Assembly (NCBI GenBank): GCA_949292215.1
Contig: CASEYW010000135.1
Span: 1-64,000 of the forward strand
DNA: 64,000 nt
Source of the DNA: an uncultured bacterium
GTDB taxonomy: Bacteria; Verrucomicrobiota; Lentisphaeria; Victivallales; UBA1829
Direction of reading: 5' to 3'
Shown: piece by piece, positions 17,729 through 20,666 of the stretch
How positions within the stretch are numbered: the stretch's first letter is position 1
How the letters are laid out: each line of letters starts with the position of its first letter
Notes under the pieces: model-generated
The model's input: only the letters and a program-made list of their open reading frames with translations
The model's database searches: none
Told to the model about the DNA's origin: nothing
Made by a program: the position numbers and the translations under genes

Positions 17729-19444
17729 ATGCAATCGGAAGTGCAGTGGTTTTTGAGCACACTCATTGACAATCAGCTCATTACGCTGGAAAAAGGCATA
17801 GAGATCAATGACGCGCTGGGAGGATCCCCGGATGTATTGACTTACGCGCAGGAGATCCTTAATCTTCTCTGCGATGGAGTTTCCGAGGAAGATGCCAAAA
17901 ACTGGGCGTCGCAGCTGGAGGATGTCATTGCTTACGCTCAGGAACAGGCGGCGATGGGAGTCGTTCCGGAACTGTTTTTACAGCAGGTGGAAGCTGCATA
18001 TCCGGAACAGGGAGAGAGGCCGGAACCTGAGCCGGAACCTGAGCCGGAACCTGAGCCGGAAAATCTCTTTGAAAAACTGCGCCGGGCAGTGGCGCATCAG
18101 CAGCAGGTGATTGATCAGCAGAAGGCACACGCTTCCGCAGGAGCATCGTCGTCATCCGGATCACGTACAGCTTCTGCATCGTCATTCTCCGGACATCGGG
18201 CTGCCGCGACGATCGACGATTCGGATTTCGATGCCTCTTCCACGGAACTGCCGGACCTGCGCAATGTTTCCTCCATGAGCGATCAGGAGGTTGCCAAAGC
18301 GATGAAACAACTGCTTGTGGGGCTCCGAGCCTATGGAGTCAGTGATTTGCACATTTCCTCGAATGCGCCTCTGTTCATCCGCCGCAATCTCATGCTGGAG
18401 CGTCTGGACCCTGAATGGGTCGTTTCCGATGAGGATTCGCAGCGGCTCAATCTGGCTCTGCTTTCCGAAGAACAGAAAGAGAGATTCCGGAAAGAGCAGG
18501 ATATCAGCTTCGGACTCGAAATCGGCAAAGCGCGCTTCCGTACTGCGCTTATGTACCACAAAGATGGGATTTCCGGGAGTTATCGTCTGGTCCCGGATCA
18601 GATTCTGACGCTGGAAGAACTCGGATTCCTTCCAAATGATGCGAAAAATATCCGTCGTCTGCTGGATTACACCAATGGCCTGATTCTCGTGACGGGCCCA
18701 CTCGGTTCCGGAAAAACCACGACTCTTGCAGCAATGGTGGAGGTTGCCAATCAGAATCGCGAAGATCACATCATTACTGTTGAGGACCCGATTGAAATCA
18801 TCCAGACTTCGAAGAACTGTCAGATCACCCAGCGCGAAATCGGCCGCTGCACCAACAGTTATCACGCCGCATTGAAAGGTGCTTTGCGCGAGGACCCGGA
18901 TATCATTGTCATCGGCGAAATGCACGACTTGGAAACAATCGAAAATGCCATTACTGCATCCGAGACAGGCCATCTTGTGATCGGAACCCTGCACACCTGC
19001 GATGCCGGCAATACATTGAATCGAGTCCTCGACGTTTTTCCTCCGACTCAGCAGCCGCAGATCCGCGCCATGACCGCAGGTTCTCTGCGCGGAATCATCT
19101 GTCAGAAGCTGATTCCCGCGGCAAACGGCGGACTCACAATCGCCTATGAAATTCTGATCAACACCATTGCGGTCGGCAACATTATCAGTGAAGGGAAAAT
19201 CTATCAGCTTCCGGCAACCATGCAGATCGGCAGTAAAGCCGGTATGTGCACCCTGGATCAGAATCTGCTGGAAAAATACAAGGCGGGACATATCACCTAC
19301 GAAACCGCTTTGTATTATATGAAGGATACTTCCATCATCGAACAGACAAAGAAACTGTATGCCATGCAGCAGGCTCAACAGTTTATGGCGGAGAAGGCTG
19401 CCCGCGATGCCGCTGCCGCAGCAGCCGCCGCGGAAAATCAATGA
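17729..19444 (+). CDS. PilT-type ATPase with long N-terminal extension
   Basis: A 571-residue type IV pilus/type II secretion-family ATPase. Residues 1-190 are an extension not usual for PilT: about 90 mainly helical residues, an EPEPEPEP linker (about 98-112) and a Ser/Ala-rich linker. The ATPase part starts near 200 (GVSDLHISSNAPLFIR) and has Walker A GPLGSGKT (323-330), Asp box VEDPIEI, Walker B DPDIIVIGEMHDLETI and His box GTLHTCDAGNTLNRVLDVFP, as in retraction ATPases. The PilT-specific AIRNLIREGK motif is degraded to NIISEGK, which the neighbour keeps better (TIREGQ). It ends in an Ala-rich tail. The second ATPase follows after 21 bases. It may be a PilU-like accessory motor, but that is inference. 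Confidence 0.85.
   Translation: MQSEVQWFLSTLIDNQLITLEKGIEINDALGGSPDVLTYAQEILNLLCDGVSEEDAKNWASQLEDVIAYAQEQAAMGVVPELFLQQVEAAYPEQGERPEPEPEPEPEPEPENLFEKLRRAVAHQQQVIDQQKAHASAGASSSSGSRTASASSFSGHRAAATIDDSDFDASSTELPDLRNVSSMSDQEVAKAMKQLLVGLRAYGVSDLHISSNAPLFIRRNLMLERLDPEWVVSDEDSQRLNLALLSEEQKERFRKEQDISFGLEIGKARFRTALMYHKDGISGSYRLVPDQILTLEELGFLPNDAKNIRRLLDYTNGLILVTGPLGSGKTTTLAAMVEVANQNREDHIITVEDPIEIIQTSKNCQITQREIGRCTNSYHAALKGALREDPDIIVIGEMHDLETIENAITASETGHLVIGTLHTCDAGNTLNRVLDVFPPTQQPQIRAMTAGSLRGIICQKLIPAANGGLTIAYEILINTIAVGNIISEGKIYQLPATMQIGSKAGMCTLDQNLLEKYKAGHITYETALYYMKDTSIIEQTKKLYAMQQAQQFMAEKAARDAAAAAAAAENQ
18020..18061 (+). repeat. 12-bp tandem repeat encoding a Pro-Glu linker
   Basis: Three perfect copies of CCGGAACCTGAG (18020-18055) plus a half copy lie inside the ATPase gene and encode the EPEP linker between its N-terminal extension and motor domain. 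Such a repeat can change length by slippage in steps of four codons without breaking the frame. Confidence 0.9.
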
Positions 19445-19465
19445 GATGCGGAGGAAACTGTTATC

Positions 19466-20524
19466 ATGGCTATCATAGATGCGTATCTGAAGGAAATGCT
19501 GAGTCTGAAAGGTTCCGACCTGCATCTTTCCATCAATTATCCCGCGAAATACCGCTTGAGCGGCAACCTGAAACCGGCAAACGACAAGATCATTACGCCG
19601 GAATTCATGGAGAAAATGTTAAAGGAGATCTGCTTTCCGCCGGACCGCTGGGATACTTATTTGAAAAACCACGATCTGGACTTCGCGTATGAAATCCCGG
19701 GATTGGCACGATTCCGCTGCAATTACATGTATAATTATTACGGTCAGGCAGCGGTTCTCCGGCAGATTCCAAGCAAAATCCTGACTGTTGCCGATTTGAA
19801 CCTTCCATCAATTCTGCTGGATATCTGCAAGATCAAAAGCGGGCTTGTCCTTGTGACGGGACCGACCGGTTCCGGAAAATCAACCACACTCGCTGCCATG
19901 ATCGACTACATCAACGATACCATGGACAAGCATATCATCACAATCGAAGACCCGATTGAGTTTGTTCACCAGAACAAACGGTGTACAATTGTACACCGGG
20001 AAGTTGGACTTCACAGCAGGTCGTTTCCGATTGCCCTGAGGGGAGCAATGCGGTCGGACCCGGATATCGTGCTCATCGGAGAGATGCGCGAGCAGGAGAC
20101 AATCCGCCTAGCTCTGACTTGCGCCGCAATGGGAATGCTTGTCTTTGCAACCCTTCACACGAACAACGCTCCGAAAACCATCGACCGCATCATTGATGCG
20201 TTTCCGGCCAATGAACAGGCGCAGATCCGCACCATGCTTGCCGAATCGCTTCAAGCGGTTGTTTCCCAGCTCCTCTGCCGGAAAATCGGCGGCGGGCGTA
20301 TCGCTGTCCACGAAATCCTGCTTTGGACGGATGGTTTGCCCAACACCATTCGTGAAGGGCAGATCTCCAATATCCGAACGATCATTGAGGCAAATCGCGG
20401 CATCGGCATGTGCAGTATGGACGGCGGTCTGAAAACGCTGATGGAAAACGGAATCATCACCGGCGAAGAAGCCTATATGAAAGCAAGCGATAAGAAACTC
20501 TTTGCAGAATATATTGAAAAATAG
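19466..20524 (+). CDS. pilT: Twitching motility / pilus retraction ATPase PilT
   Basis: A 352-residue cytoplasmic hexameric ATPase of normal PilT length. SDLHLSINYPAKYRL opens the N-terminal domain. Walker A GPTGSGKS is at residues 132-139, followed by IEDPIEFVH, Walker B DPDIVLIGEMREQETI and the His box ATLHTNNAPKTIDRIIDAFP. The C-terminal PilT motif is TIREGQISNIRTIIEANRGIGMCSMDGGL. It lies 21 bases after the first ATPase. It probably powers retraction or dynamics of the type IV pilus-like system used by the many pseudopilin-like proteins in this genome. No pilus assembly genes are nearby. Confidence 0.9.
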   Translation: MAIIDAYLKEMLSLKGSDLHLSINYPAKYRLSGNLKPANDKIITPEFMEKMLKEICFPPDRWDTYLKNHDLDFAYEIPGLARFRCNYMYNYYGQAAVLRQIPSKILTVADLNLPSILLDICKIKSGLVLVTGPTGSGKSTTLAAMIDYINDTMDKHIITIEDPIEFVHQNKRCTIVHREVGLHSRSFPIALRGAMRSDPDIVLIGEMREQETIRLALTCAAMGMLVFATLHTNNAPKTIDRIIDAFPANEQAQIRTMLAESLQAVVSQLLCRKIGGGRIAVHEILLWTDGLPNTIREGQISNIRTIIEANRGIGMCSMDGGLKTLMENGIITGEEAYMKASDKKLFAEYIEK

Positions 20525-20590: not shown

Positions 20591-20666
20591 GGCGGCTTAG
20601 CTCAGTCGGTAGAGCGATGGAATCATAATCCACAGGTCACTGGTTCGAGCCCGGTAGCCGCCACCA
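20591..20666 (+). tRNA. tRNA with CAT anticodon (elongator tRNA-Met, or tRNA-Ile2)
   Basis: A 76-base cloverleaf with encoded CCA: perfect acceptor stem GGCGGCT/AGCCGCC, D arm GCTC-AGTCGGTA-GAGC, anticodon loop ATCATAA with CAT at 20624-20626, five-base variable loop, T arm ACTGG-TTCGAGC-CCGGT and discriminator A. The anticodon stem ATGGA/TCCAC carries one A-C mismatch at its outer pair. A paired first base and the absence of the three G-C pairs of initiators exclude initiator tRNA. CAT could also be a lysidine-modified tRNA-Ile, which cannot be separated by eye. Confidence 0.93.

Follow-up and report, generated by a model that had tools for sequence, protein, structure and literature searches.

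Why do two adjacent genes for PilT-type ATPases each lack active-site residues that are otherwise invariant, and how are the losses divided between them? The question is raised by genes A and B in a stretch of 64,000 nt (the window) from an assembly of 209 contigs whose nearest named records are uncultured Victivallales. Both have been read in the window as open reading frames (ORFs) on the + strand with mechanically assigned starts, and they are separated by 21 bp. Gene A (17729..19444, 571 amino acids, aa) encodes a PilT/PilU-family ATPase with an N-terminal extension, gene B (19466..20524, 352 aa) a PilT/PilU-family ATPase. Both pass the cut-off of 319.1 bits of the PilT/PilU family TIGR01420 (NCBIfam), A with 359.7 and B with 413.2 bits. 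The tandem of PilT-type ATPases which an earlier note had described at 17729-20524 has thus held up, and family membership predicts a role in pilus retraction for both. We tentatively propose, at close to an even chance, that A and B are paralogues which depend on each other as subunits of a single retraction-type motor of the PilT family, older than the split of the pair into two tiers within Verrucomicrobiota. What has been found directly is that the tandem is conserved, that A and B co-occur, that each belongs to a well-supported clade and that their losses of invariant residues are complementary; from the complementarity we infer joint active sites, and it suggests that the two chains possibly share a mixed A-B ring.

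Complementary Losses in the Active Sites

The residues have been compared in an alignment numbered by Geobacter PilT4, in which 41 columns are invariant among 20 references (PilT, PilU and third PilT proteins). Its later version holds 19 rows of A and 18 rows of B, and counts at the protein level refer to 81 distinct A and 65 distinct B proteins. Changes reach half or more of the A rows or of the B rows in seven of the 41 columns. Losses are complete for T133 and R278 in A (19/19) and for T221 and H223 in B (18/18), no column (0/41) has been lost in all rows of both, and the reference PilT and PilU rows retain all four residues. R278 is known only as adjacent to the nucleotide site and has been assigned to neither side of the interface. 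Among the distinct proteins, the P-loop threonine T133 has been replaced in 79 of 81 A (one keeps it, one is unmatched) and is retained in 65/65 B, and the ETGH of the HIS box is retained in 80 of 81 A (one unmatched) and lost in 65/65 B. E220 is missing from B together with T221 and H223 (18/18 rows), and B keeps T133, the R206-type arginine and H230 on its own chain. The arginine of the GEMRD motif, which we have equated with R206 by our own mapping from E204, has been lost in 60 of the 81 A proteins, the position being occupied by H (56), R (21), F (2), S (1) or N (1).

The tandem in the window follows this partition. In A, the P-loop threonine is replaced by leucine (L325, 18701..18703), S138 by threonine and the GEMRD arginine (R206 of V. 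cholerae PilT) by histidine (H399, 18923..18925), so that the Walker, Asp and His boxes, previously described as intact, are intact only in broad terms; the T/H of the HIS box is retained (T413-G414-H415, 18965..18973, corresponding to T221/H223). In B, the P-loop threonine is present (T134, 19865..19867), and methionines stand in place of T221 and H223 (M222-G223-M224, 20129..20137), the HIS box reading AMGMLVFATLHT instead of ETGHLVFGTLHT. A HIS box of the PilT type, with threonine and both histidines, is therefore found in A and not in B. The AIRNLIRE motif of PilT proper is found in neither: the region reads AVGNIISEGK in A (residues 481-490, 19169..19198) and GLPNTIREGQ in B (20333..20362), and some distant members of the A family have NLIRD- or NLIRE-like forms. 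The NIISEGK noted earlier in place of an AIRNLIREGK-type motif has been confirmed in A, and the description of B as a standard PilT has had to be abandoned.

Published structures indicate what these residues may do. Contacts between the packing units of Geobacter PilT join T221 of one unit to T133 and H230 of the next, and the neighbour's T221 has been proposed as needed for efficient hydrolysis; a set of interface residues, the E220 position among them, was also mutated in P. aeruginosa, with loss of twitching in most of the mutants (PMC6858323). In PilB, coordination of the gamma-phosphate and of the side chain of the neighbour's threonine falls to the equivalent histidine (PMC5424180).

Joint Inheritance and Phylogeny

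The distribution of the pair has been surveyed in 387 species-level genomes of Verrucomicrobiota (in the GTDB sense), drawn evenly and non-exhaustively. Up to five candidates have been scored per genome, absences thus being upper bounds, and the cut-offs of the A and B tiers have been placed at score gaps after these had been seen. The A-core profile matched 111 open frames of 457-781 aa with at least 494 bits, spread over 106 genomes, followed by a gap to 456 bits; the B profile gave 110 matches of at least 557 bits in 105 genomes, followed by a gap to 503. Of the 387 genomes, 103 have both members of the top tier, 3 have A without B, 2 have B without A and 279 have neither. On the same contig, B lies within 2 kb of A for 105 of the 111 A, with B on another contig for three more and none found for the last three. 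Among the genomes with a single member, a contig end cuts B in G003, and G114 and G154 have an A that is broken or cut. Five genomes (G091, G095, G098, G177, G288) carry both genes in two copies each, and the cultured Victivallis vadensis DSM 14823 carries the pair as well (L054). Evolutionary distances among A and among B correlate over 31 pairs with r 0.893, a value reached in 0/2000 permutations; this is as expected for joint inheritance and alone no proof of interaction.

A first tree of 84 rows recovered A, B and PilU as clades with 100/100 support each, and a grouping of A with PilU (p 0.388) or with B (p 0.294) was not rejected by the approximately unbiased (AU) test. The wider tree comprises 86 rows: 19 rows of A and 18 of B have been retained, the sister tier has been added with 13 A' and 13 B' (of 18 fetched each), and five long references (Termitidicoccus, Oceanithermus, Limnohabitans, Variovorax, E. 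coli YggR) have been dropped. Here A joins A' and B joins B' with 100/99 in both cases. A and B group with gammaproteobacterial PilT and with three of the five third-PilT rows of the phylum, including the copy on contig C138 of the same genome, the other two being placed elsewhere. A branch with 98/95 support divides PilU from A, B and the gammaproteobacterial PilT, yet forcing A + A' together with PilU is not rejected (AU p 0.138). The four PilU-type references are so called because they follow PilT, two being named 'PilT/PilU family' in their records and the other two unannotated. The comparison with PilT/PilU pairs drawn in the earlier note, for which it had advised a phylogeny, stands as an analogy between conserved tandems of retraction ATPases; in the best tree, the pair does not correspond to PilT and PilU.

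The sister tier, A'-B', lies below the score gap and belongs to other families of Verrucomicrobiota. The tandem is present in 18/18 of the second-tier loci fetched (L201-L218). An extension of the kind seen in A is missing from 16 of the 18 A', some of which have extra N-terminal residues, and is short in L205 and L215. T133 has been lost in 12/13 A' and H223 in 13/13 B', with T221 retained in 13/13 B', which suggests from the sequences that T133 (A) and H223 (B) were lost before T221 (B).

A Possible Mixed Ring

In the proposed motor, B would supply an ATP site on its own chain (T133, the R206-type arginine, H230) and could not lend E220, T221 and H223, and A, with its own P-loop changed by the loss of T133, would lend these three residues to its neighbour. 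An alternating ring would collect the canonical residues at interfaces where a B site meets an A neighbour and leave the losses of T133, T221 and H223 to the other interfaces; in a homohexamer of A or of B, every interface would be changed. Because the canonical interface would arise only where the ATP site of B faces an A neighbour, a mixed A-B ring is favoured over two rings. Such a motor would drive the disassembly of pilins or pseudopilins, and the helical domain of A, held on a flexible linker, may serve as an arm for docking or regulation that probably goes back to the N-terminal domain of assembly ATPases. The tether to a cargo or to a pseudopilin-specific platform suggested in the earlier note stays a conjecture. 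In its strictest form, the ring would be an obligate heterohexamer in which A and B alternate, three of its ATP interfaces being canonical and three degenerate, and in which the losses of T133 in A and T221 in B would hard-wire the interfaces that fire; this form is possible but doubtful. The logic of such a ring would be likened to that of F1-ATPase with its catalytic and non-catalytic sites.

Several observations weigh against the proposed motor. In V. cholerae, PilT and PilU form separate homohexamers (PMC6821130), and stacked rings of the two have been modelled (PMC13142100). The contact between threonines in PilB has been described as backbone to backbone (PMC5424180), and the loss of side chains may therefore matter less. 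L039 and L040 have Q in place of the second HIS-box histidine, and two of the 19 A rows of the later alignment have Q or N there. Since B' has lost H223 and still keeps T221, the full complementary pattern is not ancestral. Co-occurrence and congruence would fit two separately acting motors as well. Within a few kb of A-B, no other pilus gene has been found among the ORFs of the window, and at the sensitivity used no cluster of neighbouring genes beyond the ATPases themselves is common to all groups. Finally, three genomes, which are outside the counts of 81 A and 65 B, keep the tandem and the N-terminal domain with degraded motifs (G054:C62, L259; G081:C2, L260; G175:C28, L261). Degradation there affects the P-loop, Asp, Walker B and HIS boxes of A and B alike, the P-loop lysine of B has been lost in two of the three, and the A frame measures 706-717 aa in G081 and G175; they are apparent pseudo-ATPase pairs. 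In these genomes the B site cannot be catalytic, so that one has to suppose either a role other than catalysis or decay of the two together. A and B thus appear to degrade together, and the pair can outlive its catalytic motifs, which fits a shared fate and not a universally catalytic B site. This weakens a catalytic role of B in those lineages and leaves the pattern in the lineage of the window as it is.

Weighing the Alternatives

Known behaviour of PilT and PilU (PMC6821130, PMC6762196, PMC13142100) offers a model for an arrangement in which A and B form two homohexamers stacked on one platform protein, one driving and the other adding force or coupling, with the losses doing no more than tune the ATPase rate of each ring. 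In V. cholerae MO10, R206S in PilT makes PilU essential (PMC6762196), and A has histidine at this position in 56 of 81 proteins; by analogy, the position would again point to a motor that relies on a partner. A homohexamer of B without E220, T221 and H223 (18/18) would, however, be crippled under the mechanism proposed in PMC6858323, and the complementary partition would become a coincidence; we hold stacked homohexamers to be rather unlikely. Still a little less likely is that A-B is a specialised motor of a pseudopilus or secretion-like filament, not of type IVa pili, with ordinary retraction left to the third PilT of the genome on contig C138 (L013). The boxes of that PilT are intact, the genome encodes several other T2SSE-type ATPases and at least 150 matches to prepilin-type N-termini (N_methyl; 150 of 295 candidates scored), and A-B lies apart from other pilus genes in the window. 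Such a distance is also common for PilT and PilU genes, however, which are often found away from other pilus genes, and, with or without A, 60 of 61 genomes have PilM (59 of them above the cut-off), which makes its co-occurrence uninformative and leaves this reading without a discriminating correlation.

The tandem arrangement could also mean that A corresponds to PilU and B to PilT as orthologues, in reversed gene order and with PilU decorated by an extension. A is encoded next to a PilT-like gene, if B is taken as such (105/111 within 2 kb), PilU likewise lacks a good AIRNLIRE motif, and neither AU test rejects the grouping. Against this stand the 98/95 branch of the wider tree, the P-loop threonine, which is kept in 4/4 PilU and absent from 19/19 A rows, and the HIS box, which ends in HT in A and in HA in PilU; we regard this orthology as improbable. 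That the pair is merely a redundant PilT tandem decaying by ordinary drift, its extension being meaningless low-complexity sequence, seems highly improbable. The linker evolves fast, both members are degraded in the three genomes named above, and in G178 the N-terminal domain sits on a shortened, unrecognisable core. Over eight pairs, however, the ratio of non-synonymous to synonymous substitution rates (dN/dS), a rough measure here as dS often exceeds 1 and synonymous change is near saturation, amounts to 0.02-0.08 for the cores and 0.03-0.27 for the N-terminal domain, compared with ~0.09-0.81 for the linker. Moreover, the pair is conserved across the phylum, and the losses have been fixed in the lineage of the window with the remaining site retained. 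The reading preferred here therefore remains that of two co-dependent subunits of one motor.

The N-Terminal Domain of A

The PilT match within A begins at residue 192, and the length of ~190 residues given earlier for its extension has been borne out. Its description as one novel region has been replaced by a conserved helical domain, widespread in the family, and a variable linker. Residues 1-90 (17729..17998) form the all-helical domain, as indicated by alignments, an AlphaFold2 model and profile matches. Residues 91-184 (17999..18280), compared among family members and partly with a predicted confidence (pLDDT) below 50, form the linker, and residues 185-530 (18281..19318) the PilT-type ATPase core. 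The A family shares its first 85-90 residues as a conserved block, followed by 14-123 residues (50 members) before the core begins. The structure prediction, which had been recommended as a check, gives a compact fold for residues 1-90 with helices at 3-14, 20-29, 36-48, 53-76 and 81-90, a mean pLDDT of 88 for residues 1-91 and low confidence at residues 92-110 and 136-161 of the full-length model. The perfect 12-bp tandem repeat coding for the EPEP linker has been recovered at 18019..18061 (3.6 copies coding (PEPE)n, 100% matches between copies). Among relatives, whose repeat length had been another check, the nearest (L045) has an imperfect EPEP run and the next (L046) none; the repeat is poorly conserved and is a local variant of the linker.

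Matches to the domain profile (E <=0.001) occur in 104 of the 387 genomes, 96 with a top-tier A core and 8 without; in four of the latter (G114, G154, G192, G374) the genes are cut or fragmented, and the other four are G054, G081 and G175 with their diverged, degraded pairs and G178 with its shortened core. Ten genomes have an A core without a domain match, and in six of the seven such loci fetched (L219-L225) a wider profile finds the domain. In the remaining one (L223, G262:C4), the A protein carries ~80 extra N-terminal residues with no recognisable domain, and its B lies on another contig. Elsewhere, in locus L059 (6321-9506), the ORF of A extends ~560 residues upstream to 1061 aa in total, by either a real or a mechanical start. 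In the genome of the window, A is the only significant match, the next (E 0.735) being the N-terminus of an assembly-type ATPase. That PilU does not usually carry such an extension agrees with its absence from the four PilU-type proteins fetched (369-408 aa). As far as searched, with the profile survey covering Verrucomicrobiota, the extension has not emerged as common in ordinary PilB or PilT proteins of many phyla.

We infer with moderate confidence that the extension is probably a degenerate relative of the helical N-terminal half found in assembly ATPases (PilB/GspE, MshEN/GSPII domains), and it is probably not a sensor of cyclic di-GMP (c-di-GMP) of the MshE type, because its profile resembles that of PilB and the c-di-GMP motif is absent in 81/81 A proteins. 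Against the PilB N-termini of the same order, the domain profile has reached a probability of 78.8% (score 30.7, 52 columns), the N-terminal half of PilB aligning in register across both helix pairs. Among the controls, 200 column shuffles gave at most a score of 18.1 and a probability of 5.6%; reversing the profile yielded 0.2%, and no window of the A/B cores (36 compared) exceeded 3.3%. Probabilities for kinship with the N-terminal half of MshEN are 79-81% with wide profiles; a narrower profile (A2) reaches only 13.1%, which counts against it. A second PilB profile (86.4%) is non-independent, its 15 rows including mis-registered segments and PilB1 relatives, and its positive control is inflated. 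The extension-bearing A' proteins L205 and L215 reach 93.6% against the PilB N-termini and only 50.8% against the domain of A. The N-terminal half of MshEN has been described as a four-helix bundle of two 24-residue motifs (PMC5013675).

The Pfam family MshEN (PF05157) matched none of 30 members at E <=1, among 25 of 40 families listed, and was not among the matches listed for five other extended A or A' proteins. The c-di-GMP motif RLG...Q, in a relaxed form of the published pattern, is missing as well from all 33 PilB N-termini of the order (0/33), and the MshEN-like motif spacing does not discriminate (18/81 A proteins, 52/358 control frames, 1/33 PilB N-termini). A Foldseek search with the model of the extension gave no PDB match at E <=0.001. 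The best VIA structural alignment is to Brucella SagA (Z 8.0, 2.4 A, 77 residues), a resemblance that may reflect a common helical arrangement only; MshEN structures are not among the matches listed, which does not exclude them. Compared with the sequences of the PDB, the wide profile had only weak matches, the best at E 0.13 and Thermus PilF at E 1.9. A novel fold has been considered through the fold searches and set aside.

Neighbouring Features and Other ATPases of the Genome

A purine-rich stretch lies shortly 5' of the start of both A and B, and a tRNA-Met follows 3' of B at 20591-20666. An antisense ORF of 447 codons runs across A (18182-19525, - strand), and the second-largest cluster of neighbouring genes (25 loci) is exemplified by a frame antisense to A. 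Long antisense frames are also present in relatives (e.g., L071) and are most likely an effect of codon composition. On contig C31 of the same genome, one ORF (L010/L012, ~736 aa) encodes two PilT-type domains, each with a P-loop threonine and a TGH HIS box, and many of the relatives listed have a PilT match in a frame of ~720-810 aa; such a fused double PilT might force a mixed ring. Contigs C93 and C64 carry ATPase frames of 622 and 576 aa (L007, L008), each with T2SSF matches near, which look TadA/CpaF-like and seem to have FHA-like N-termini.

Comparison With Known Systems

Among the titles and abstracts listed by full-text literature searches (lists of 5-20 titles), made largely without subscription literature and without a query for HIS-box loss as such, none dealt with the A-B pair. 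Mixed rings are an open question for type IV filament ATPases: heterohexamers have been proposed in one essay (PMC6711533), and homohexamers have been found for PilT and PilU of V. cholerae (PMC6821130). If the proposal is true, A-B would be a natural mixed ring, proposed in the literature and found otherwise for PilT and PilU. With invariant residues split between two chains, the question becomes directly testable, and the pair would provide a natural experiment on the proposed T221/T133/H230 proton relay (PMC6858323).

The MshEN/GSPII domain of PilB, GspE and MshE is probably the nearest known counterpart of the extension. The domain of A resembles the helical N-terminal half of PilB at the profile level and differs in having neither a Pfam MshEN match among the families listed nor a c-di-GMP motif and in sitting on an ATPase of the retraction instead of the assembly family. 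By sequence, the closest solved relatives are Geobacter PilT 5zfq for A (285.5 bits) and 3jvu for B (327.1 bits), which we take to be PilT of G. sulfurreducens and P. aeruginosa, respectively. Unlike A and B, the PilT proteins of Geobacter, Pseudomonas and Aquifex (5zfq, 6ojx, 3jvu, 2ewv) combine an intact P-loop threonine and HIS box in one chain without an extension. The PilT/PilU tandem of Gammaproteobacteria (V. cholerae, P. aeruginosa) likewise consists of two PilT/PilU-family ATPases encoded side by side, one of which lacks a good AIRNLIRE motif, and the position of R206 in A is that whose change makes PilT of MO10 depend on PilU (PMC6762196). In A-B, however, the losses of invariant residues are split between the two members and the extended gene lies upstream, whereas PilU is placed elsewhere in the best tree, a grouping not being rejected by the AU test, and the four PilU-type references have no such extension.

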